DNA of 64,000 bases, taken from NCBI RefSeq assembly GCF_040807025.1, contig NC_090951.1, positions 1,674,001-1,738,000 on the forward strand, written 5' to 3'. Source of the stretch: Struthio camelus (lineage: Eukaryota > Chordata > Aves > Struthioniformes > Struthionidae). The notes beneath the pieces are model-generated. The model was not told where the DNA came from, searched no databases, and was given only the letters and a program-made list of their open reading frames with translations. Of this stretch, positions 4,861 to 64,000 are shown piece by piece; position 1 is the stretch's first letter, and every line of letters begins with the position of its first letter. A program made the position numbers and the translations under genes.

Positions 4861-48225
<43,365 letters not shown>

Positions 48226-50744: not shown

Positions 50745-51765
50745 GGTTTTCTTAAAACAATTTATTCTTTCAATTTTATATAAAAACAGATGATCAAATT
50801 AACACTAGACCATTGCTGGTCTCCTAATCTGCATCAAACCCTTTTCCCATAATAAAAAGTACAAAATATGATGACAGCTAAACACACAGTTTAGAATTGA
50901 AGTAAAGCCCTTGGATTTTGGAAAGCGCCTTTCATCAGCCGCACAACAATTACATTCCACGACACAGAAGGAAATAATATCGTAATCTGGTATACAGAAA
51001 AATAGAAATCTGCCTGTAACTCCCATATCAAATATAATTCTCTATCATGCATCCCGTTAACGAGAATGGCACATCATTAGGCTGTATATTACGAATCACC
51101 TCTCCCCGCTGGGGCACACGCACGAGCAGTTTCACACAAAGGCACAGCGTCCAGCTGCACGGAGACCTTCACATTTCCCTGGCGCTCGCTCCGGTGGGCC
51201 GAGCATGGCAGGTCGCCAGCGCGGCGGCAATTTCGGGACCTGAAATGGGGGCTGGGAGCCCCACGGGGCAGGAGGGCTGGGGCAGCCCATGGGCCGACCG
51301 CTGCGGTGCGAGGGAAATGCGTAAAATGACGTGGAGAACAAGTTTCTGCGCGTGAACGTGTGGGGTGAAGCTGCGTCTTCTATGTCCAAGCCGGGAAGAC
51401 GCCGGGCTGGTGTCAGGGCAGGTCCCAAAGCAAAGCCTGGCGCAACCGTGATTTTGTGTTGGCCCAGTGAGGTCAAGCGCATCCCCCAACCGGTGCTGCT
51501 GGAGACCCTGGGCCACCACGGGGACCACTGTGACGGGAGGCAGCGCCTGGAAGCAGCCAGGTCCCCCTCCAGCCCTGCTAACCCGCCACCCTGAGCTTTC
51601 CCTGCGCTGAAGGAAGGGGACGCAGACGACAAGTCCGAGGGGTGTCCGAGGGAATTTCGGCCGCCCACCCCGCAGCCGGGGCAGGGCAGGCGCGCCAGCC
51701 TGAGTCCGAGGGGCTGAAATGACGTGAGCTGCGGCTGTGGCCCGGCCCGGGGGCGGCGGGGGGCT
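50745..51765 (-). other. CDH1: CDH1 3'UTR (predicted)
   Basis: About 1 kb between the CDH1 TAG and the AATAAA. The distal third (about 50761-51120) is AT-rich, the proximal part GC-rich. Confidence 0.6.
50761..50766 (-). terminator. CDH1: CDH1 poly(A) signal (AATAAA)
   Basis: Minus-strand AATAAA about 1.0 kb after the CDH1 stop; the first canonical signal that fits. It is followed by a T-rich stretch (TTGTTTTAAG) suited to downstream elements. Cleavage is expected near 50745. Confidence 0.65.
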
Positions 51766-51978
51766 CTAGTCGTCCTCCTCGCCGCCGCCGTAGAGGTCCG
51801 CCAGCTTCTTGAAGCGGTTGCCCCAGTCGTGGAGGTAGTCGTAGTCCTGGTCGCGGTCGGAGGCGGAGGAGTGGAGGGAGCTGAGCGAGGTGGCCTCCGA
51901 GCCGCTGCCCTCGTAGTCGAACACCAGCAGCGAGTCGTAGGGGGGGGCCGTGGGGTCCGTGTCGGCCGCCTTCAGGTT
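51766..51978 (-). CDS. CDH1: CDH1 exon 16 (residues 808-877, stop)
   Basis: [39 protein letters not shown] (beta-catenin binding) and [18 protein letters not shown] at 51766-51768. Identical to CDH3 exon 16 at every base I compared. Confidence 0.97.
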
Positions 51979-54900
51979 CTGGGGGCAGAGAGGGGCAGCG
52001 TGGGCCGGGGCTCGGCGGGGCGGCCCGCGCAGGTGGGTGGGCGAGCGGGCGGCGGGGACTCACCTCGTCGATGAAGTTGCCAATCTCGTCGGGGTTGGCG
52101 GGCCGGGGCCGGTACTGGGGGGCCGCCATCAGTGGGGGGGCCACGTCATTGCGGATGACCTCGGGGCGGGCATCCAGCCCCCGGTGCAGCTGGCTCAGAT
52201 CATAGTCCTGCACGGGGACAGGCCGGGATGGGACGTGAGGGGACGGCGGGCCGCCAGCGGGACCCTCCTCAGGCAGGGGAGGCTGGGGGCATCGCTGAGG
52301 CCGGCAGGTCCACGAGGACCTCACACACCCCGAATCCCCATCGTGGCCACGGCGAAGAGAGCAACGGAGCGCAGCCCGCAACACGCCTGACCCACCTGGT
52401 CCTCCTCGCCACCACCCTCCTCGTCATAGTGGTACACGTTGTCCCGCATGTCGTCCTCGGGCGGCAGCAGCGGCTCCTTCACCACCTTCCTCCTCCTGGC
52501 GAAGAGCAGCAGCAGCAGCAGCAGGACTGCGGGGAGCGGGGCAGTGGCGTCAGGGCGGCCCTGTCCCCGGCTCTGTCCCCGTCCCCCCAGCCCGTCCCAT
52601 ACTCACTCAGCAATGCCAGGATGCCCCCCAGGATGCCCAGGATGGCGGGGACGCCCAGCCCGCCGACGACGCGTGCCCGCCGCTCGCAGTTCTTGGCCAT
52701 CCCCTTGCACTCGCACACCTGGGCTTTGACTGAGGTCACCTGCGCCTTGCCCTGGCTGTCCGTCAGCTTCAGAAAGATGTTGTACTCCCCCGGCTCCAGC
52801 TCCTTCACCAGGTTGAGGACCAGCGTGTCTGAGGCAGGAGAGACAGAGCTGAGAGCCAGGTCTGGGGTCCTGGGGCCGGGGACACCCTCGACGCTGGGCT
52901 CCCTGGGATGCCCCTGTCTGGCGCCTGCTCTTCCAGCTGGAACCCCGCTCTTACTTGGTGCATCCCCGCGACCCTTACCTTGGCCGGTCACCTTCACGGT
53001 CCAGTTGGTGCCAGAGCCGTACTCCAGTGCCGCCTGGAAGGGGTAGGTGTTGGGGGGCAGGTCCTTATCCACGATGGTCAGCGTCTGCTCCTCGGGCTGC
53101 CGGTTGCAGATGTCGAAGAAGCGGGGCTCCGGCATGGGCCCGTTGTCGTTCACGTCCTGCAGGACGAGGAGCAGCGTCCCCGTGCCAGTGGCGTCCGGCG
53201 CCCCTGCAAAGCGCAGGGTTCAGTGGGGTGCCCAGGCAGGACACCGGCCCCGGGGGCGTCCGGGAGCCCCTGCGCCCAGTGGGACGTGCCCTGCTCTGCG
53301 ACGGATAGTGCGCCCCTTACCGCTGTCCACGGCCAGCACGATGGCCTTGTAGGTGCTGTTCAGGGCGTACGCTGACTCCCGGTCCAGGGCCTGGGTGGCG
53401 GTGATGATGCCGTTCTCGGGGTCGATGGCCAGCCACCCCGCGGGGTCACTGCCCATCCGGTACCTGGGGCGAGCGTGGGGTGAGCGAGGGGGGCTCGACC
53501 CCACCATCCCCCCTCCGGCAGCCGGGACGGGCTCATGGCGCAGCAGGAGCAGCCTGGCCCGTGGGCACCCGTGCTGCTCCCGTGTCGGACCCGCAGCCCC
53601 GCGTGCCGGGGCGCGTTGTCTTTCCCCGCCCGGGAACAACGCATCCCCTAGCCAGCGCGTGTGGGGTCCCTGCGCTCACGTGATTTTCTGCCTCTGATCC
53701 TTGTCTGGGTCCTGAGCCGTGTAGGACGTGACCTCCTGCCCCACCGGCAAATCCTCTGACACCTGCACCCTCTTGACAGGGGGCATGAAGATGGGGGCTT
53801 CATTCACGTCTGTGACTATCACCAAGACGCTGGCTGTGGAGGTGGGGAGGGACACGGTCAAGGGGACTTCGTTCTCCACCGTCACCATGAGCTCGTACCG
53901 CTTCTTCATCTCATAATCCAGGCCCTGGGTGGGATGGGAGAGAAGCCCCAGTGTTACCCCAGCTCCTATGGGGAGGACATCTGTCCCATGGCAGCCACGT
54001 GGCGGCATAACCCACCTTGGCAGTTCTGAGGATGCCGTCATTGGTTTTAGGATCAGTGGTGATGCTAAAGTCATTGTCCTGGTCCCCGCTCTTGATGTGG
54101 TAGACCGCTCGCCAGGCAGGGGAGCCCTGCATGTCCAGGTCCTTCACCTTCAGCCGGGCCACCACAACCCCCACCTTGTTCTCCTCCACCACCCCCTCGT
54201 ACTGCAAGAGAGGAGACAGGCCCGGTCACCTGCATGATCCTGGGTGCCTGTGGCAGATGGGTTTGCACCACAGAGGCCCAGGGAGCCAGGTGCCCCGTAG
54301 TCCCCATTGGAGCCAGCATGGGGGGGGAGGGACAGGTACCGCGGTGGGGTCAAAGATGGGAGGGTTGTCATTGGCGTCGGTGACTTCGATGATGGCCGTA
54401 GCCGTGTTGGTCAGGCCCTTGCCCTCCTGGTCCGCTGCCTGGATGATCAGCGTGTAGTTGGGAGTGCTCTGCAAGCCAAAATCACCATGGTCAGGGCAGG
54501 AACGGGTGCAGTCTATCCCCGCAGACCTTCCTCTGGGCCAGTCTTGCCTGCCTGCTCTTCCACCCTTCTCCAGCCATGGCTGTCCCTGCTGGCATGCTTT
54601 CCAACATCCCCTGGCTGGGGTCCCTCTACAACATCCTCATCACAGACCCCCGCTGGGCTCAGGGCCCCAGACACACCCAAAGCAGGGGATGGTGACGTGA
54701 CACAGTGATGGTGTGTCCCCAAATAGACTGCACCCCAGAGCTCCAGTGTCCCCCACCTCCCTGCAGCAAACCCCACTGCCTCCCCAGGTGCACCACACGG
54801 AGCTGCCGCGCAGCCCTGCAGGACATGGTGTGGGCACCCACCTCCCTGTCCAGCCCCGTGGCGATGACACTGATGATGCCCTTCTCCGGGTCGATGGTGA

Positions 54901-57900
54901 ACATCTGGTGCGGTGGCTCCTGGCTGAGGATGGAGTATCTGATGATGCCATTGTCCACGTTCACTGCGTCGTCCGCATCCGTGGCATTCACTGTCATCAC
55001 AGAGGTACCTGGGCACAGGAACAAGCAGAAGAGGTTTCACTTGCAGGACAAACCCTGCCAGGTGTCTGCTCAGCTCTGGCTCGCAGCTCCACATGTCCTG
55101 CCCAGCTGGGCTGCAGGACCCCACGTCTCCCATCGTGCAGCCCACGCACCCGGCTTCGCGCCCTCCTCAATGTAGCCGACGAAGACCTGCTTGGTGAACA
55201 TGGGCCGGTTGTCGTTCTGGTCCGTCACCGTGATGATGATCTCCATGGGTTCCTCCACGCGCTGCCCGTTGGCCGACACAGCATGGGAGAAGAGCTGCAA
55301 GGCGCGTGGTCAGCGCTGCGGCCAGGACCCGGGACCACGTCCCGCCCCGGCACCCGACTCACGATGTATCTGTTGATCTCCTCCCTGTCCAGCGGCTTTG
55401 TCACCTCCAGCCACCCCGTCTCCCGCTCGATGGTGAAGACACCCACGGGGGGGGTGTCCGCCCCCTGCCCCGTGATGCTGTAGAAAACCTTGGTCTCCTT
55501 GTCCTTGTTGGATTTGATCTGGCAGTGAGGCGGAGGGGGCGGTTAGAGGGACTCCCTGCCCCGAGACGCCGCTCCGCATGGGACGACCAACGCTGGTGAG
55601 GTGTCCCCAGAGCCTCGGAGACATGCTCAGCCTTGCCGGACGGCCAGGAGGGAGCAGGGGCTTCCCCGGCAGCCCGGCCTCGCGTGGCCCTTCCTGGAGA
55701 GCCGGCGCGGCCGCGCGGGGACGAGGCGCCACGTACCTGCACCAGCTTCTTGGGGAAGGGGCCCCGCTCGTTCTCCGGGCAGTTGATGGGCGGGATGACC
55801 CAGTCCCTCTTCCGCCTCCGGAGGCCGTGGCCGGGCTCGGGGAAGGTCAGCACGTCCGGCGCCGCGCGCTGCGGGGAGAGGAGCTCGTCTCGGGGCCGCG
55901 GCGCGCGCGGGAGGGCAGAGCGCCCGGAGGCACCCGCTGCGCCTGGCCGAGGCGTCCGTGCCCTTTTCCCCGGGACGGGGCAGCGCGAGGGGCGCTTTAC
56001 CGGGGGCTGCTGGGGCCGCCTCCGCCTGCCGAGGGTAACCCGGGCCGAGTGCTTCCCGCCCGCCGCGTCCCGGGCGTGGATGAGGAAGGCGATTTCTTGC
56101 CCGTGGAGCTGCAGGGGCCGTTTTGCCGAGACGACGCCGTCCGCGCGCACCTGGAAGCGCGTGTCATCCGCGACGAGCATTGCCGGCTGCTGCCCGCCGC
56201 AGTCCGTGAAGCTCGCTGCGGACGGGAGAGCGGGTGGGCAGGGAGCCCCGCGTGGGCCAGCTCCTCGCCCGCCCGCACCGCAGAGCTCCGGGTGCCGCAG
56301 GGAGCCCGCGACGGCAGCCGGAGCTGGCTGCGGGACGGCGCGGCCGCGGCACGGCCACGGTTTGGGCTGCGGGGTGCAGCAGGCACGTGCCGTGCACGGC
56401 GCTGCAGGCCCGGCGGGGACCTGGGCAAGGCGGGCAGCACCACGCATGGCGCATCCCTGCCGTGCCTGCGGCAGCAGGACCGAGCACAGCGCAGCCCGGC
56501 CGTGCCCGCGCGGGGCGCTCTGCACGCTGCATCCCTGCGGCACATCCCCACGCAGGGTGCAGCCCTGCCGTTTTGGCACATCCCCACTCATGGCACATAG
56601 CTGTGTGCAGCACACCCCTGCTGTGCAGCACTGTGCGGGGCACATGCCTGTGTGCAGCACGTCCCCCTGCACAGCACATCCCCGTGGCGCAGCACCCTGC
56701 GCACCACGTCCCCGTGCATGGCCCATCCCCGTGGTGCAGCACTGTGCACAGCACCCCATGCAGCATGTCCCCCCTGCACAGCACGTCCCCATGCATGGCC
56801 CATCCCTGTGGTGCAGCACCGTGCACAGCACGGCACGCAGCACATCCCCGTGCACGGCCCATCCCTGTGGTGCAGCACCGTGCACAGCACCCCACGCAGC
56901 ACATCCCCGTGCACGGCCCATCCCCGTGGTGCAGCACCGTGCACAGCACCCCGCGCAGCACATCCCCGTGCACGGCCCATCCGCGTGGTGCAGCACCGTG
57001 CACAGCACCCCATGCAGCACATCCCCGTGCACGGCCCATCCGCGTGGTGCAGCACCGTGCACAGCACCCCACGCAGCACATCCCCGTGCACGGCCCATCC
57101 CCGTGGTGCAGCACCGTGCACAGCACCCCGCGCAGCACGTCCCTCTGCGTGATGCCAGGTGCGGCCCGTCCCCGCTGCGCAGCACCGTGCATGGCGCAGC
57201 GCTGCCATGCCCCCAGCAGCGGGCAGAGGGGGTTGGTGCTCCGGGTCCTTTCCAAATTAAAGCAAAGCAGCGTCCCTCGCCCCTGCACTGGCACCCAGCC
57301 ACCCCGGTGGCCGGCAGGGCCAGGGCGGGAGCCAGGGCTGCCCCGCGGGTGCTGGCGGCCGGGGTCTGCGTGGGGGTCACCGGGGCTGCCCATGGGTGCG
57401 TCACCCCGCACGGAGGGGCCGGGTGGGCGATAGGGACCAGGAGAGGGACAGCGGGAGTGGGATGGGCAGTGGGATGGGGACCAGCCCCCCCGCCGGGCAC
57501 CCTGGCGCCCCAGCAGCGCTTCCCGGTGCGGAGACGTGCCGTGCTGGGCCGGCGATCGGCCGGCGTCGCCCGAGCTGCCCCGGCCGCCGCGCTGCACGGC
57601 CCCGGGGCAGGTGGCTGGAGAGCCGAGCGCCCGGCCCCGGCACGCTTACGTCAGCCGCCCGGCAGCCCAGGAATGCGGCAACAGTGCGGGACGGAGGTGG
57701 GAAGCGCCCGCAACGCCCGGGGGGCCGGGGCCGAGCTGCCCCCGCCGCAGTGCCCCAGCTCCCGGGGCTCCCGCCGGCCCCCCGGGGCAGGGCAGAGCTC
57801 ACAGGCAGCCAGGGCACAGCGCTCAGCACCCGGCCCCACAGCAGCTGCATGCAGCGAGCACACAGTGCTCAGCACCTGGCCCCACACTGGCTGCATGCAG

Positions 57901-60900
57901 CGAGTGCTCAGTGCTCAGCACCCAGCACCCACCCCCACATTGGCTGCATGCAGCAAGTGCTCAGTACCCAGCCCCACAGTGGCTGTGTGCAGCGAGTGCT
58001 CAGTGCTCAGCACCCAGCCCCACACTGGCTGCATGCAGCGAGTGCTCAGTGCTCAGCACCCAGCACCCACCCCCACATTGGCTGCATGCAGCAAGTGCTC
58101 AGTACCCAGCCCCACAGTGGCTGCGTGCAGCGAGTGCTCAGTGCTCAGCACCCAGCCCCACACTGGCTGCATGCAGCGAGTGCTCAGTGCTCAGCACCCA
58201 GCACCCACCCCCACATTGGCTGCATGCAGCAAGTGCTCAGCACCCAGCCCCACAGTGGCTGCGTGCAGCGAGTGCTCAGTGCTCAGCACCTGGCCCTGTA
58301 CTGGCTGCATGCAGTGAGTGCTCAGCACCCAGCACCCACCCCCACACTGGCTGCATGCAGTGAGTGCTCAGCACCCAGCCCCACAGTGGCTGTGTGCAGT
58401 GAGTGCTCAGCACCCAGCACCCAGCCCCACACTGGCTGCATGTAGTGAGTGCTCAGCACCCAGCACCTTGCCCCACACTGGCTGCATGTAGTGAGTGCAG
58501 TGCTCAGCACACAGCACCTGGCCCTGCAGTGGCTGCATGCAGCGAGTTGCACAGTGCTCAGCACCCAGCACTTGGCCCTGCAGTAGCTGTATGCAGCGAG
58601 TGCAGTGCTCAGCACCTGGCCCTGTACTGGCTGCATGCAGCAAGTGCTCAGCATCCAGCACCCAGCCCCACAGTGGCTGCGTGCAGTGAGTGCTCAGTGC
58701 TCAGCACCCACCCCCGCACTGGCTGCATGCAGTGAGTGCTCAGCACCCAGCCCCACAGCGGCTGCATGCAGTGAGTGCTCAGTGCTCAGCACCCACGACC
58801 TGGCCCTGCACCAGCTGGCTGCGGCGAGCACGCAGCGCTCAGCGCCCGCTCGGCCCCCCTTCCCGCCCCGGCCGTGTGCACAACCTGTTTTTCCAGCTCC
58901 CGGCTGGAAGAAACCTCCCTCGCAGCCCAGCCGGATCGCCGCCGGGGCAGGGGGCCGCGGCCGGGCGGCGCGGCGGCTCTGGCGCTGGCGAGGGGGGGCG
59001 GGGGGGGGGGCGGTGCAGCACCCGGCTCCCACGCTTCGCCCACCACCCCCGGGGAGCCCAAAAATCGCCGAGGCGCCTGCCAGGGACCCGGCTTGGCCCG
59101 GCCGCGCTGCCCGCCCGGCGCTCCCCGACGCGCGGGGGCCGAGGGACCCCCGCCGGGGCTCCCCGGCGCCCCTCAGCCCGGCGGAGGGCCACGCGCGCCC
59201 CGCTTCCGCCGGCGGCACGGCCGGGCGCCAGCCGCGCCGGGGGGCTTGCGCAAGGGCGGCCGCGGCGGCGCCCGGCTGACGTCACCCCCAGTTTCGCCCT
59301 GACTTCAGACTTTCGAGGTTTCACCCACCCGGGGCTGAGTCAGCAGCGCCCCCGCGCCGGGCCGCGGCTCCCCGGGGACCGCCGCCGCGCTACGGCCTGG
59401 CACGACGCAGCCGGCGGCGCCGGGCAGCTTTCGCCGGGGGGAAACCGCCTCTCCCTCGGTGGGGAGCTTCCCGCCAGCCCCGCTCGGCCCCGGCGGAGGC
59501 GGCAAGCCGAGGACGCGTCCGGCGCGGCCCCCGCTCGGCGCAGGTGTCCCTCCGTCCTGCCCCGGCCAGGCCCTATCCGGACCCGCCGCGGGGCGGAAAA
59601 CCCCAGGTGCCGCTCGCCAGCCGGCCGCAGCGCTCCCTCCTCGCCCCCGGCCCCAGCGCCAAGCTGGGAGCGCCGGCGCGGGAAAGCGGGGCCGGCCGCG
59701 GCTCCGGGGAGCGGGCCAGCCGAGCGCCTTCGTTAATGATCAGCCACAAAGCTAACGAGCCTGGCATTCGCGAGGGGCGACGGCTTGGCCGGGGCCGAGG
59801 GCGGTTTTGGGAGCCCCGCCGCGCGGCGGGCCAGCCTTCGCCCCGGCCAAACCGGAGCACACGGCGGCGCGGGGCGAAAGCGCCGGGAGCCGGCGCTCGG
59901 CGCGGCATGGCCACCCCGGCGCCGGGAGAAGCAGGGCGTCGGGGGCTTGGGGGCCACTCGGGGATGCTCGCAATGAGAGTTTGTGGAGGCAGCGGCTGGG
60001 GCGCCCGCCCTGCCGGGACAGGTATTTCGCGTCGGCGCGGCCTGCCGAGGCACGGCCTCGACGCCGGCCCCTCCGCGGGCGCCGCAGCAGGGGCCCGGCG
60101 GGCTCCGGGGGCCGCGAAACGCGGCAGGTGCCCCGGCGCGGCCCCCCGCCCAGGCCTGCCCGCCCCGACAGGTCTGCGTGCCTGAGTCAGCGCCCGCCGC
60201 CCCGGCGCTCCCGGCGAAAGGGCAGCCCGCCCGGCGCCTCCGCTCCTTAACGCTTTCGTGGCGGTGGTGGAGCTGCCCCGGCTCTGCCCCCATCGCCACC
60301 GTGGAGCCGTGCACCGCCGTGGGCACCGCGCAGGGCATCCGGGCACACGGCCCCGGCTCTGCCCCCGTCGCCACCGTGGAGCCATGCATCGCTGTGGGCA
60401 CCATGCAGGGTGTCCGGGCACATGGCCCCGGCTCTGCCCCCATTGCCAACGCGGAGCCGTGCACTGCCGTGGGCACCGCACCGGGCACCCGGCTGCCCTC
60501 CATGGCCCCGGTCGCCCTCGGAGCCGTGCACCACCGTGGGCACCGCGCGGGGTGTCCGGGCACACGGCCCCGGCTCTGCCCCCATCGCCCTCGGAGCCGT
60601 GCACCACCGTGGGCACCACGCAGGGCATCCGGGCACACGGCCCCGGCTCTGCCCCCGTCACCACCGTGGAGCCGTGCACCACCGTGGGCACCACGCAGGG
60701 CATCCGGGCACACGGCCCCGGCTCTGCCCCCGTCGCCACCGCGGAGCCGTGCACCACCGTGGGCACCGCGCGGGGTGTCCGGCCGCACCGTCGCGGCTCC
60801 GCGGCCCCGGCCGCCCTCGGAGCCGTGCACGACCGTGGACGCCGCGCGGGGCAGCCGGCCGCGTGGCCGTGGGAACCCGCGCGTCCCGCCCACGCGCCCC

Positions 60901-61198
60901 GCGCGCCTCGGCCGCCCACGCCGCCGCCGTCGCGCCTTACCTCGGCCCAGGGCTCTGCCCGCCGCCGCCCCGTCCGGCCGCCCGGCGAAGGCGAAGGTCC
61001 CGGCGGCGAAGCCGGGCTGGCAGGAGCCGCGCAGCCCGCTCCCGGCCTGCCACGAGAGAGCCGTCAGCCCCCGCCCGTCCCGCCCGTCCCGTCCCGTCCC
61101 GTCCGTCCCGTCCCGTCCCTCACCTGGAGCAGCAGCAGCAGGAGGAGGAGGAGGAGGAAGAGGCACAGCGGGGCCGGGCAGCCCCGCCGCGGCCCCAT
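51766..61198 (-). CDS. CDH1: CDH1, E-cadherin (L-CAM)
   Basis: Classical type I cadherin mediating calcium-dependent homophilic adhesion at epithelial adherens junctions. I find 16 coding exons, the classical number, nearly all with sizes equal or close to mammalian CDH1, giving 877 aa (human 882, chicken 887). Signal peptide 1-25 with a leucine run; prodomain; furin site RRRKR then mature DWVIPPI from residue 154, with the adhesive Trp at 155; SHAVSANG (HAV, residues 232-234); calcium motifs DQNDNRP, DANDNPP, DVNEAP, DVNDNGP separating EC1-EC5; transmembrane segment about 701-724; juxtamembrane p120-catenin site [17 protein letters not shown]; beta-catenin-binding tail ending GGGEEDD. Sequence is very close to chicken L-CAM as I recall it. 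Intron 2 is about 4.7 kb. Lies about 0.7 kb downstream of CDH3, the tandem arrangement known in chicken. Confidence 0.98.
52064..52207 (-). CDS. CDH1: CDH1 exon 15 (residues 760-807)
   Basis: A 144-bp exon, [20 protein letters not shown] through [14 protein letters not shown]. At DNA level it differs from CDH3 exon 15 by one synonymous base. Confidence 0.97.
52396..52526 (-). CDS. CDH1: CDH1 exon 14 (residues 716-759; transmembrane end, p120 site)
   Basis: A 131-bp exon, seven leucines after Ile, then [18 protein letters not shown] and [13 protein letters not shown], which begins the p120-catenin-binding core. Confidence 0.97.
52607..52828 (-). CDS. CDH1: CDH1 exon 13 (residues 642-715; EC5 end and transmembrane start)
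   Basis: A 222-bp exon with [32 protein letters not shown] and the transmembrane start [15 protein letters not shown]. Confidence 0.97.
52979..53203 (-). CDS. CDH1: CDH1 exon 12 (residues 567-641)
   Basis: A 225-bp exon with [19 protein letters not shown] and [22 protein letters not shown]4-EC5. Confidence 0.97.
53321..53463 (-). CDS. CDH1: CDH1 exon 11 (residues 519-566)
   Basis: A 143-bp exon, [18 protein letters not shown] and [22 protein letters not shown]4. Same length as the CDH3 counterpart. Confidence 0.97.
53680..53924 (-). CDS. CDH1: CDH1 exon 10 (residues 438-518)
   Basis: A 245-bp exon, the family-typical length, with [32 protein letters not shown] and [15 protein letters not shown]3-EC4. 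Confidence 0.97.
54016..54201 (-). CDS. CDH1: CDH1 exon 9 (residues 376-437)
   Basis: A 186-bp exon, [19 protein letters not shown] and [15 protein letters not shown], ending GILRTAK; EC3. Confidence 0.97.
54340..54468 (-). CDS. CDH1: CDH1 exon 8 (residues 333-375)
   Basis: A 129-bp exon, [19 protein letters not shown] then [11 protein letters not shown]; ends EC2. Confidence 0.97.
54842..55008 (-). CDS. CDH1: CDH1 exon 7 (residues 277-332)
   Basis: A 167-bp exon (human 176) with [38 protein letters not shown]2. Confidence 0.96.
55150..55294 (-). CDS. CDH1: CDH1 exon 6 (residues 229-276)
   Basis: A 145-bp exon with the HAV motif in [10 protein letters not shown] and the EC1-EC2 linker DQNDNRP. 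Confidence 0.97.
55363..55518 (-). CDS. CDH1: CDH1 exon 5 (residues 177-228)
   Basis: A 156-bp exon, the same length as in human: [19 protein letters not shown] and [20 protein letters not shown], with the LDRE calcium motif. Confidence 0.97.
55737..55868 (-). CDS. CDH1: CDH1 exon 4 (residues 133-176; furin site and EC1 start)
   Basis: A 132-bp exon with the proprotein cleavage motif RRRKR, then [20 protein letters not shown]. The N-terminal Trp used in strand-swap adhesion is present. Confidence 0.97.
56001..56215 (-). CDS. CDH1: CDH1 exon 3 (residues 61-132)
   Basis: A 215-bp prodomain exon with [31 protein letters not shown] and [19 protein letters not shown]. Acceptor GTCCGCAG, donor GTAAAG. 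Confidence 0.94.
56640..57150. repeat. Minisatellite, about 59-bp unit, 7-8 copies (CDH1 intron 2)
   Basis: Units such as CCCATCCCCGTGGTGCAGCA followed by CCGTGCACAGCACCCC(A/G)CGCAGC and ACATCCCCGTGCACGG repeat at about 59 bp, regular from about 56765 and more degenerate on the low-coordinate side. Confidence 0.93.
57795..58830. repeat. Minisatellite, about 22 copies of a 39-55-bp unit with a 12-bp palindrome (CDH1 intron 2)
   Basis: Units combine a GCTGCATGCAGC block with GAGTGCTCAGTGCTCAGCAC and CCAGCCCCACA. Length varies because the CAGTGCTC and CAGCACC sub-repeats are present once or more. GCTGCATGCAGC is its own reverse complement and occurs intact in many of the units; others read GCTGCGTGCAGC or GCTGTGTGCAG. 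Confidence 0.95.
59277..59344. promoter_or_regulatory. CRE and MAF/AP-1 palindromes in CDH1 intron 2
   Basis: TGACGTCA (59277-59284) is a perfect cAMP-response element and GCTGAGTCAGC (59334-59344) a near-perfect MAF-recognition/AP-1 palindrome, 50 bp apart in non-repetitive sequence. Binding in vivo is inferred only. Confidence 0.4.
60272..60840. repeat. Minisatellite, 69-75-bp unit, about 8 copies (CDH1 intron 2)
   Basis: Units begin CCCCGGCTCTGCCCCC and contain GGAGCCGTGCACCACCGTGG then GCACCGCGCAGGGCATCCGG. Units missing CACCGT-type bases are 69 bp, the full ones 75 bp. Degenerate at the high-coordinate end. Confidence 0.95.
60941..61046 (-). CDS. CDH1: CDH1 exon 2 (residues 26-60)
   Basis: A 106-bp prodomain exon containing [18 protein letters not shown], equivalent to human PCHPGFDAESYTF. 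Acceptor GTGGCAG, donor GTAAGG; ends in phase 1, like the mammalian exon. Confidence 0.9.
61066..61120. repeat. (CCCGT)n pentanucleotide repeat in CDH1 intron 1
   Basis: Imperfect run of CCCGT/CCGTC units filling most of the 77-bp intron 1, right next to the exon 1 donor. Confidence 0.85.
61124..61198 (-). CDS. CDH1: CDH1 exon 1 (signal peptide, residues 1-25)
   Basis: [12 protein letters not shown] followed by a Phe and ten leucines encoded by CTC/CTG triplets, then Gln and the donor GTGAGG. The leucine run is a coding trinucleotide tract and may vary in length. Confidence 0.95.
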
Positions 61199-61890
61199 GG
61201 CGCGGCCGAGCTCGGGGGTGCGGAGCCGGCGGCGGAGCGGAGCGCACTGCAGCCCGCAGGTGGGTCGCGGCCCGCCCCGTCCCGGCCCGCCCCGCAGGTG
61301 CCGGCCCCGTCGGGAGGCGGTGCCGCCCCGGTCCGCCCCCCCGGGAGCCCTGGGCCGGCTGTGAGAGCTCCCCGAGGGCCGCTGGGGTGTGCGTGGGGGG
61401 GGGGGTCTGAGGACCCCCGGGATGGTTCGCAGGTGTCCTGCGAAATCCGTGGGCGCCCTGGGAAGGCTGCGGGCGCTTCGCGGGGTCCCCGGGGCTCTGC
61501 ACGGTCCCCGGGAGCATCACGGGCTCCTTCGGAAACCCTGGGGCTGCTTTTGGTGGTCCAAGAGGGCCGCGGGGAGCCTGGGAGGGCTGTGGGTGCCCCG
61601 GGAAGCCCGTAGGCGTCATGGCTGGGTGGGGGGGCTGTGGGTGCCCTATGGATGCTGGAGGAAATCCGTGAGCGCCCTGGAGCCCCGGGAGGGCCGAGGG
61701 CACCCCGGGAGGTACCCAGGGGACGGAGGGGCCGGCGGCTCCCCCGCGCCTCCGGCGAGCAGGGGACAAAGTCCGGCCGAGCACGAGCAAACAGCGCGGC
61801 GGTAAACAGCAGCGCGGGGAGGGGGGGGACGGCGCCGCCACGCAGCCCCGCAGAAACTTAAAAACCAAGAACAAACCAAAAAAAAAAAAA
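61199..61890 (-). promoter_or_regulatory. CDH1: CDH3-CDH1 intergenic interval with CDH1 promoter
   Basis: About 690 bp between the predicted CDH3 cleavage region and the CDH1 ATG, so the CDH1 5'UTR and core promoter must lie here. No TATA is seen. GC boxes (CCCGCCCC on the plus strand, twice within 61268-61294) and three CAGGTG E-boxes at 61257-61262, 61295-61300 and 61430-61435 are present. CAGGTG/CACCTG E-boxes in the CDH1 promoter are the known targets of SNAI, ZEB and related repressors during epithelial-mesenchymal transition. Confidence 0.7.
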
Positions 61891-61902
61891 AAAAGGGCCT
61901 CC

Positions 61903-61908
61903 TTTATT
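61903..61908 (-). terminator. CDH3: CDH3 poly(A) signal, distal AATAAA
   Basis: Minus-strand AATAAA followed closely by a T-run (A-run at about 61878-61894 on the plus strand), a good U-rich downstream element. Gives a 3'UTR of about 180 nt. Confidence 0.6.
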
Positions 61909-61957
61909 TAAAAGTTGCACCAGAACCCGCTCACCCCGCGTTTAGCATCGCGCTAGC

Positions 61958-61963
61958 TTTATT
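61958..61963 (-). terminator. CDH3: CDH3 poly(A) signal, proximal AATAAA
   Basis: A second minus-strand AATAAA 55 bp upstream of the distal one, about 105 nt after the CDH3 stop. Either or both may be used. Confidence 0.5.
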
Positions 61964-62067
61964 TCCTAGTCAAAAACAAAAGGAGAAAGGGAGAGGAGGA
62001 AGCCAAGGGCACTTCGGGGGGGGGGGGGGCACGGCCCCAAGGCCTGGCCCGGGGGCGGCGGGGGGCT
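61964..62067 (-). other. CDH3: CDH3 3'UTR (predicted)
   Basis: Short GC-rich 3'UTR with a G homopolymer at about 62017-62030 (C-run in the transcript). Only its first 27 bp belong to the block shared with CDH1. Confidence 0.6.
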
Positions 62068-62280
62068 CTAGTCGTCCTCCTCGCCGCCGCCGTAGAGGTC
62101 CGCCAGCTTCTTGAAGCGGTTGCCCCAGTCGTGGAGGTAGTCGTAGTCCTGGTCGCGGTCGGAGGCGGAGGAGTGGAGGGAGCTGAGCGAGGTGGCCTCC
62201 GAGCCGCTGCCCTCGTAGTCGAACACCAGCAGCGAGTCGTAGGGGGGGGCCGTGGGGTCCGTGTCGGCCGCCTTCAGGTT
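62068..62280 (-). CDS. CDH3: CDH3 exon 16 (stop)
   Basis: A 213-bp coding part, [20 protein letters not shown] through [12 protein letters not shown] at 62068-62070. Base-for-base identical to CDH1 exon 16 where compared. KAADTDP is E-cadherin-type (human P-cadherin KAANTDP). Confidence 0.95.
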
Positions 62281-64000
62281 CTGGGGGCAGAGAGGGGCAG
62301 CGTGGGCCGGGGCTCGGCGGGGCGGCCCGCGCAGGTGGGTGGGCGAGCGGGCGGCGGGGACTCACCTCGTCGATGAAGTTGCCAATCTCGTCGGGGTTGG
62401 CGGGCCGGGGCCGGTACTGGGGGGCCGCCATCAGTGGGGGGGCCACGTCGTTGCGGATGACCTCGGGGCGGGCATCCAGCCCCCGGTGCAGCTGGCTCAG
62501 ATCATAGTCCTGCACGGGGCCGGGACGGGGGGGGGGGTGAAGGCGGACGGCGGCCGTGCCGCGTCCCCCCCACCCCTCCAACGCCGCGCACCCACCTGGT
62601 CCTCCTCGCCGCCGCCCTCCTCGCCGTAGCAAAACACGTTGTCCCGCGTGTCGTCCTCGGGCGGCAGCAGCGGCGGCTCCTTGGCCGCCCTCCTCCTCCT
62701 CCTGCCTCCGAGCAGCAGCAGCAGCAGCAGCAGGACTGCGGCAGAGGCGCGGGGTGAGGACGGGGCGCCCGGCCCCCCGCCGCCCCCCGCCGCCCCCCGC
62801 CGCCCCACGCTCACGCAGCAAAGCCAGGAGGGCGCCCAGCGCTGCCAGCACCAGGGGAGCAGCGGCGGCGGCGGGGGGGGCCGGCGGCCGGGGGCAGCTC
62901 TCGGCGTGCCCCTCGCAGTCGCAGACCCGGGCGGCCAGCACGGTGAGCTGCTCCCTGCCGCGGCCGTCGAAGAGGCGCAGGTAGACGCTGTAGAGGGCCT
63001 GCTGCAGCGGCGCCGTCAGCCGCAGCGTCACCGTGTCTGCGGGACAGGCGGTCAGGCGGGGGCGGCGGGGGGGGACGACACACACACGCCGCCCGGCCGC
63101 CCTCACCCTCGCCGCTGACTTCGGCGGCCCAGCTGTCGGCCGAGCCGTGGGCCAGCTCGGCCCGGAAAGGCGCCGCGTTGGGCGGCAGGTCCCGGTCGAC
63201 GATGGCCAGGACCTGAGGCCGGGGGCTGCGGTTGCAGACGACGACGTCCCGGGGCCGGGGCTCGGGGCCGTGGTCGTTCACGTCGAGCAGGGTGAGGAGC
63301 AGGGTGCCGGTGCCGGTGGCCGGCGGCGAGCCTGCGGGAGGAGCCACGCTGCCCACGAGGGTCCCGGGCGCCGCCGGGTGCACCCGCCGCGGCCGCGCGG
63401 GGCCTTCCTCACCGTCGTCCTCGGCCAGCAGCACGGCCGCGTAGGTGCTGTCCCTGGCGAAGGGGGCCTCGCGGTCCAGCGGGGCGCGCGCCGTGACGAG
63501 CCCGCTCTCCGGGTGCACGGCCAGCCAGCCCGCCGGGTCGCTGCCCAGCCGGTACCTGCGCGGCGAGACGGCGCCGTGGCGGACACCGGCGACGGGGCCG
63601 GGTCCCAGCATCGGCGGCGGCGCCACCGCCGCTCACCTGAGGCGCTGGCCCCGCGCGCGGTCGGGGTCGCGGGCCGTGTAGGCGGCCACGGCGTGGCCCA
63701 GCGGCACGTCCTCCGGCACGCGGGCCGCCAGCGCCGGCGGCTCGAAGGCGGGCGCCTCGTTCACGTCCTCCACGCCGACCGCCACCGTGGCCGTGGCCGC
63801 CGGCAGCTTCACGGCGAAGGGCGCCGCGTTGGCCACGGCCACGTGCAGCACGAACTGCCCCCTGGCCTCGTAGTCCAGAGCCTGGGAGAGGGGACGGGCA
63901 TCATCGCCATCGGCATCGCCCCAGCCGGCGGCGGTGGCGGGGCGCCCGCACGCACCTTGGCGGTGCTGAGGACGCCCTCGTTGCTGGCGGGGTCCGTGGC
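62068..64000 (-). CDS. CDH3: CDH3, P-cadherin (B-/K-cadherin of chicken), 3' part
   Basis: Classical type I cadherin, tandem paralogue of CDH1; the 5' exons lie beyond the window. Exons 9 (partial) to 16 are present with canonical junctions and family-typical lengths (245, 143, 225, 222, 140, 144, 213 bp for exons 10-16). P-cadherin rather than E-cadherin identity rests on residues shared with human CDH3: DVNDHGP in exon 12, [11 protein letters not shown] and REQLTV in exon 13, and [13 protein letters not shown] in exon 14 (CDH1 has [10 protein letters not shown]). By contrast the tail encoded by exons 15-16 is CDH1-like and identical in protein to CDH1 here. EC3-EC5 are unusually rich in Ala and Arg, probably from local GC bias. 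The predicted 3'UTR is short, and CDH1 follows within about 0.9 kb of the stop. Confidence 0.93.
62366..62509 (-). CDS. CDH3: CDH3 exon 15
   Basis: A 144-bp exon with [20 protein letters not shown] and [14 protein letters not shown]. One synonymous difference from CDH1 exon 15. [14 protein letters not shown] is E-cadherin-type; human P-cadherin has ITQLHRGLEARPEV. Confidence 0.95.
62596..62735 (-). CDS. CDH3: CDH3 exon 14
   Basis: A 140-bp exon: leucine run, [36 protein letters not shown]. Longer and clearly diverged from CDH1 exon 14 (131 bp), in contrast to exons 15 and 16. Confidence 0.93.
62815..63036 (-). CDS. CDH3: CDH3 exon 13
   Basis: A 222-bp exon, [30 protein letters not shown], then the transmembrane start [13 protein letters not shown]. 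Confidence 0.93.
63107..63331 (-). CDS. CDH3: CDH3 exon 12
   Basis: A 225-bp exon with [19 protein letters not shown] and [20 protein letters not shown]. The NDHGP spelling is a P-cadherin mark; CDH1 has NDNGP. Confidence 0.94.
63413..63555 (-). CDS. CDH3: CDH3 exon 11
   Basis: A 143-bp exon, [18 protein letters not shown] and [21 protein letters not shown]4. Acceptor CGCGCAG, donor GTGAGG. Confidence 0.94.
63637..63881 (-). CDS. CDH3: CDH3 exon 10
   Basis: A 245-bp exon, [49 protein letters not shown]3-EC4. Donor GTGAGC. Confidence 0.94.
63956..64000 (-). CDS. CDH3: CDH3 exon 9, partial (window edge)
   Basis: Reads [14 protein letters not shown] before the donor GTGCGT, equivalent to [14 protein letters not shown] in CDH1 exon 9; EC3. 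Continues past the window end. Confidence 0.85.

Follow-up and report, generated by a model that had tools for sequence, protein, structure and literature searches.

The stretch of Struthio camelus DNA analysed here, referred to as the window, is 64,000 nucleotides long (C10:1674001-1738000, from an assembly of 1.45 Gb in 262 contigs). Its right-hand part carries two classical cadherin genes, CDH3 and CDH1, arranged head to tail on the minus strand, with 869 bp between the CDH3 stop codon and the CDH1 start codon as calculated from their positions. The same order is known from other vertebrates. Exons 9-16 of CDH3 (exon 9 in part) fall in the window and exons 4-8 in the adjoining DNA (locus L005), where a third, inverted piece of a cadherin gene was also found. 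CDH1 exon 3 and CDH3 exons 1-3 were not located. The genes were named after their best-matching solved structures. The first two extracellular cadherin domains (EC1-2) of the downstream gene (52-61 kb) scored higher against the Cadherin-1 chains 1edh_A and 6cxy_C (346 and 337 bits) than against the Cadherin-3 chain 4zmt_A (305 bits). For the same domains of the upstream gene Cadherin-3 was preferred by a narrow margin of 4 bits (4zmt_A 363 bits, 1edh_A 359 bits), and among longer chains EP-cadherin (718) was preferred over Cadherin-1 (711).

The original prediction, made from the DNA letters, was that the 3' ends of the two genes match over 478 bp without gaps and with two mismatches, including the 85-bp intron 15, and this was confirmed. 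CDH1 51739-52216 and CDH3 62041-62518 were identical at 476 of 478 positions in an ungapped alignment, and the two mismatches (51743 C / 62045 T and 52148 A / 62450 G) are both transitions at CpG sites. The tract runs from the start of the 3' untranslated region (3'UTR) through exon 16, intron 15 and exon 15 to the end of intron 14 (Table 1), and intron 15 is the same in the two genes over its whole length. The limits first proposed for the match needed a small correction. On the 3' side it does extend to 27 bp past the CDH1 stop codon, made up of 22 bp, the first mismatch (51743) and four more bases, but 10 bp of intron 14 match rather than 9, as the identity continues for one further base to 52217/62519. 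Beyond these limits the flanks are unrelated on both sides, the identity being lost sharply. As predicted, both cadherins end in the same tail, with the last 118 residues shared by the two proteins. The joined exon 15-16 tail contains the Pfam C-terminal domain PF01049 (E 1.2e-30), which the genome search also placed at both genes, and exon 16 is taken to be the part that binds beta-catenin. The GC content of the tract is 73%. GC content at third codon positions (GC3) is high throughout both genes and reaches 1.00 in exon 16 of each.

Outside the tract the two genes are strongly diverged, as had been stated for the neighbouring exons. When the aligned codons of exons 4-14 were compared exon by exon, protein identity ranged from 38 to 92% and the proportion of synonymous differences (pS) from 0.20 to 0.63 (0.20-0.57 for exons 5-14 alone). 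Exons 15-16, by comparison, have 1.0 synonymous difference per 84.0 sites, located in exon 15, and none in exon 16. The lowest pS outside the tract was that of exon 14 (0.20), in which 34 of 44 aligned amino acids and 113 of 132 aligned nucleotides were alike and in which the predicted length difference, 6 nt in favour of CDH3, was recovered. Alignments of introns 4-14 scored 0.7-4.6 standard deviations (z) above shuffled sequence in all 11 cases, versus a z of 18.7 for intron 15. Over the aligned codons of exons 4-16 (2172 columns), the longest run free of differences was 294 nt; in 10,000 permutations of the codons the maximum was 72 and none reached 294.

A search of the same genome, in which all counts are lower bounds, found the tail in at least four places. 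These were the CDH1 and CDH3 copies, followed by places with 83% and 71% identity that are presumably CDH4-like and CDH15-like, so that near-identical copies were found only at CDH1 and CDH3. The C-terminal stretch of classical cadherins was recovered at 21 places in the genome, and among the 210 pairs, all of which were compared for identity, only CDH1/CDH3 was identical (1.000), the next pair reaching 0.853. For pS, the 20 pairs with tail L033 were excluded. One pair, L019 and L024, which we take to be CDH2- and CDH4-like, is 97% alike in protein and 78% alike in DNA, with a pS of 0.87. Constraint on the protein is therefore no explanation for the identity of the CDH1 and CDH3 tails. Relatives of exon 16 were also sought in collections of prokaryote and viral contigs, and none were found among 222 and 9 pattern-matching stretches, respectively, a weak test as vertebrate sequence would be present there only by contamination.

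The third cadherin piece was revealed when the end of the window and the next 19.8 kb were compared with themselves. It lies on the plus strand at L005 6327-7179, with exon 8 extending it to approximately 7516, and a genome search with CDH1 exons 4-6 returned the same places. Over a second tract, 315 of 318 alignment columns are identical between CDH1 and this fragment, comprising exon 5 (155/157 columns), intron 5 (68/68) and the first 93 nt of exon 6 (92/93). Beyond it, identity is 36/54 in the last 54 nt of exon 6 and 59/141 in intron 6, and the end of exon 6 together with exon 7 of the fragment is 66-78% identical to CDH1 or CDH3. CDH3 is less like the fragment over the same core than CDH1 is (129/157 in exon 5 and 51/79 in intron 5). 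CDH1 and the fragment also have in common part of exon 4 and the initial 28 bp of intron 4, with no alignment in the middle of intron 4 (44/164). The divergence of the two stretches differs (99% identity in the core, 93-96% over exon 4), and the exon 4 stretch represents either an older tract or a separate one. CDH1 and the third fragment are a mosaic too.

The third fragment is probably a relic, apparently truncated, because its exon 5 has one extra base relative to CDH1, causing a frameshift, and only exons 4-8 were found. With CDH1 exons 4-16 as the tblastn query, significant matches in 17.3 kb (66,500-83,800 when numbered on from the window) were to exons 4-8 only, exons 1-3 not having been sought, and the open frame with exons 9-16, a membrane span and a tail that a working gene would have was not seen. 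As intron 5 is identical in CDH1 and in this probable relic, selection on both is hard to invoke, and selection is unlikely to have kept the intron of the fragment. The identical intron shared with the relic is the strongest sign of copying at the locus, which involves both direct (10.3 kb) and inverted (~15 kb) partners. From the second tract it follows that the locus converts repeatedly, and the small cadherin cluster seems to copy pieces of itself.

Table 1. Features of the CDH3-CDH1 region (window positions unless marked C10 or L005)
Feature	Position	Strand	Remarks
Tract, CDH1 copy (3'UTR start, exon 16, intron 15, exon 15, last 10 bp of intron 14)	51739..52217	-	
CDH1 exon 16	51769..51978	-	70 aa; 210/210 nt as in CDH3; stop codon 51766-51768
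CDH1 intron 15	51979..52063	-	85 bp; GT...AG; GC 0.84; 85/85 as in CDH3
CDH1 exon 15	52064..52207	-	48 aa; 143/144 nt and 48/48 aa as in CDH3
CDH1 exon 14, in-frame part	52396..52527	-	132 nt; outside tract
CDH1 exon 5, intron 5 and first 93 nt of exon 6 (second tract)	55202..55518	-	corresponds to C10:1744593-1744910 (L005 6593-6910)
CDH1 exon 4 (part) and first 28 bp of intron 4	55709..55877	-	common with third fragment; 66/69, 67/72, 28/28
CDH1 exon 1, coding part (signal peptide)	61124..61198	-	
Tract, CDH3 copy	62041..62519	-	
CDH3 exon 16	62071..62280	-	stop codon 62068-62070
CDH3 intron 15	62281..62365	-	identical to CDH1 intron 15
CDH3 exon 15	62366..62509	-	
CDH3 exon 14, in-frame part	62596..62733	-	138 nt; outside tract
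Third fragment, exons 4-8	C10:1744327-1745516 (L005 6327-7516)	+	~15 kb from CDH1 exon 5

Several other features of the region were recorded. In both genes one frame is open from exon 15 through intron 15 (51979-52063 in CDH1), probably by chance, and retention of the intron would result in a different GC-rich tail. Past the CDH3 stop codon the sole AATAAA (in 61199-62067) is at 61963, and none of four polyadenylation-signal variants was found in the 967 bp from the CDH1 stop codon onwards (50800-51766). Minisatellite arrays lie between CDH1 exon 2 and exon 4 at 56695-57186 (59-bp units), 57805-58846 (46-bp units) and 60275-60862 (75-bp units), and further arrays are found in the window at 46740-47300 (43 bp) and 5317-6033 (36 bp). 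Another repeat array, in which several frames are open, probably by chance, separates CDH3 from the third fragment (L005 4650-5751). The neighbouring genes are presumably a URAH-like (transthyretin-like) gene on the plus strand at L005 ~9000-9600 and a GAS8/DRC4-like gene on the minus strand in L006. URAH and GAS8/DRC4 are far from CDH1/CDH3 in humans, and the cadherin neighbourhood looks rearranged on this basis.

The tract is far more alike in the two genes than its surroundings are, at silent and non-coding sites as well, it is bordered on both sides, and the genome search lists two near-identical places, a lower bound, as would be seen with an unchanged copy number. From these observations we infer a recent interlocus gene conversion, ectopic and non-reciprocal, between the tandem CDH3 and CDH1 genes, in which one gene had its exon 15, intron 15 and exon 16 replaced by those of the other, and we place the probability of this reading at about 0.88. 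The original prediction of gene conversion is supported by the intron, the synonymous collapse in exons 15-16, the two-sided borders, the genome-wide comparison of tails and the second tract. Such an event would begin when a double-strand break at or close to one tail was repaired from the paralogue 10.3 kb away. Heteroduplex would spread only where the copies are alike and would halt where they are unrelated, approximately 10 bp into intron 14 on one side and 25 bp beyond the stop codon on the other. Intron 15 (85 bp) would be swept along because it is enclosed by two conserved exons. The common tail would then be a side effect, tolerated by selection because the two proteins require the same tail for binding catenin. 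The tract common to CDH1 and the third fragment is built alike, from an exon, a short intron and a piece of the next exon, and points to repetition of the process within the cluster. A single unequal crossover was rejected as the source of the main tract because it would leave one border, not two.

CpG transitions are as expected if the two tails are true copies ageing apart. If 1.9-3 per site per billion years is taken as the neutral rate in birds, the two differences in 478 bp (Poisson range 0.2-7.2) would put the last conversion event some 0.1-4 million years back, a rough figure because the tract is mostly coding and both differences are at CpG sites. The tail protein shares 103 of 117 residues with the E-cadherin row 1i7w_B, presumably mouse, versus 90 of 117 with the EP-cadherin row, presumably frog. 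This points weakly to CDH1 as the donor, though frogs are more distant in any case. Intron 15 (85 bp, GC 0.84) is nearer in length and GC content to introns 9-14 of CDH3 (67-86 bp, GC 0.78-0.88) than to those of CDH1 (80-216 bp, GC 0.63-0.75), which points weakly to CDH3, though repeated biased repair also raises GC.

The original prediction had allowed for either gene conversion or an assembly copy error, and of the two we favour conversion. An artefact, in which one tail was written over the other during consensus building or polishing or both genes received the reads of one, could be helped by the very high GC content of the tract (73%), as very GC-rich sequence drops out of some data types. 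However, there is no N in the window or in loci L001-L008, the 1.45 Gb assembly consists of just 262 contigs, and the copies are inexact, differing at two CpG sites. A stretch of ~474 bp would also be short against long reads, if such were used for this assembly, and the second tract, with another partner, an inverted orientation and a different divergence, would need an independent error. We consider an artefact improbable. Less probable again is that the tails of old paralogues were kept identical by function, whether of the protein, of splicing or of the RNA. The tail protein is strongly conserved, as the 1i7w_B comparison indicates, yet the CDH2-/CDH4-like pair has a pS of 0.87 at 97% protein likeness. 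Intron 15 is identical, as is the intron 5 common to CDH1 and the frameshifted fragment. The earlier view that purifying selection is insufficient, based on the identical intron, is strengthened by this control pair, and a selective cause would appear to be absent. An intrinsic function of the intron was considered separately and rejected, since the identical intron 5 is found in the frameshifted fragment also.

Replacement of the tail by a recent duplication or insertion, or by a double unequal crossover, could produce the same final sequence, but the replacement is exact in register, no further near-identical copy was listed in the genome search and the borders sit where the homology ends; we regard this route as the least credible of those considered. 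A refinement of the conversion reading, which it does not exclude, is that the tails have been re-homogenised many times and that the visible tract is the latest round. The GC content of intron 15 is what biased repair would leave, there is more than one tract and these differ in divergence (99% in the core, 93-96% in exon 4), and outside the tract pS is lowest in exon 14, its neighbour. On the other side, high GC is general in CDH3 and a single genome does not separate repeated from single events. The chances that conversion here has been recurrent in this way are a little short of even.

Some observations weigh against conversion as set out above or limit what can be drawn from it. Introns 5, 8, 13 and 14 align at 3.4-4.6 standard deviations above shuffled sequence, so the introns outside the tract are not wholly unrelated. 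The pS of the CDH1/CDH3 tails against the CDH4-like tail is only 0.245. We take it that silent-site divergence saturates low at such high GC3. pS alone therefore exaggerates the contrast, and the intron and the abrupt flanks carry more of the case than pS does. The signals of direction conflict, the protein favouring a CDH1 donor and the intron a CDH3 donor, both weakly. The evidence comes from one assembly of one individual, and the tract may yet reflect an error of assembly at this place or an allele private to that individual.

Taken further, and more speculatively, the CDH1/CDH3 cluster may be a standing conversion network of three copies, made up of two working genes and an inverted, pseudogene-like donor or acceptor. 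Such a network would hold the tails with which E- and P-cadherin bind catenin identical, even as their adhesive domains diverge, and would move blocks between the first adhesive domain of CDH1 and the relic copy, with mosaic evolution of parts of E-cadherin in this lineage. The two cadherins are a textbook example of paralogues whose roles are distinct. If their tails overwrite each other, gene trees, tests based on the ratio of nonsynonymous to synonymous divergence (dN/dS) and the specificity of tail antibodies or probes would fail in such species, and the functional differences between the two proteins must sit in their adhesive portions and membrane parts. Within approximately 20 kb, the locus also offers a clear example from nature of conversion tracts limited by homology (exon, short intron, exon), in direct as well as inverted orientation.

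In chicken, L-CAM and K-CAM/B-cadherin are encoded by tandem genes, head to tail with a short gap, and the CDH3-CDH1 arrangement found here is the same. Interlocus conversion of tandem duplicates, as in the globins and others, leaves mosaic identity with sharp borders, introns included, where a stretch of one gene has overwritten that of its neighbour. The tails described here have these same properties. What differs is that the participants are two old, functionally distinct genes and a broken, inverted third copy, and that the tracts appear limited to the islands of homology left by conserved exons. Among the matches listed in the open-licence literature there was no report of conversion between CDH1 and CDH3 or other classical cadherins, a scope that does not take in the chicken L-CAM/K-CAM papers of the 1990s, which may hold a remark. 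A mention of conversion in the literature concerns arthropod cadherins, a case other than CDH1/CDH3 (PMC5473995). In the teleost protocadherin clusters, repeated regional conversion was inferred from tandem paralogues with >99% identical 3' parts of the variable exons and less similar 5' parts, the tracts having raised GC3 (PMC1852091). The likeness to the present case lies in tandem paralogues of the cadherin superfamily with near-identical 3' parts beside diverged 5' parts. The teleost tracts lie within variable exons and involve several paralogues, whereas here two exons and an intron encoding the cytoplasmic tail are involved in two classical cadherins, and GC3, which is high throughout CDH1 and CDH3, provides no test. 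Tandem paralogues are already known to undergo conversion, and the less expected element here is the tract shared with the third copy.

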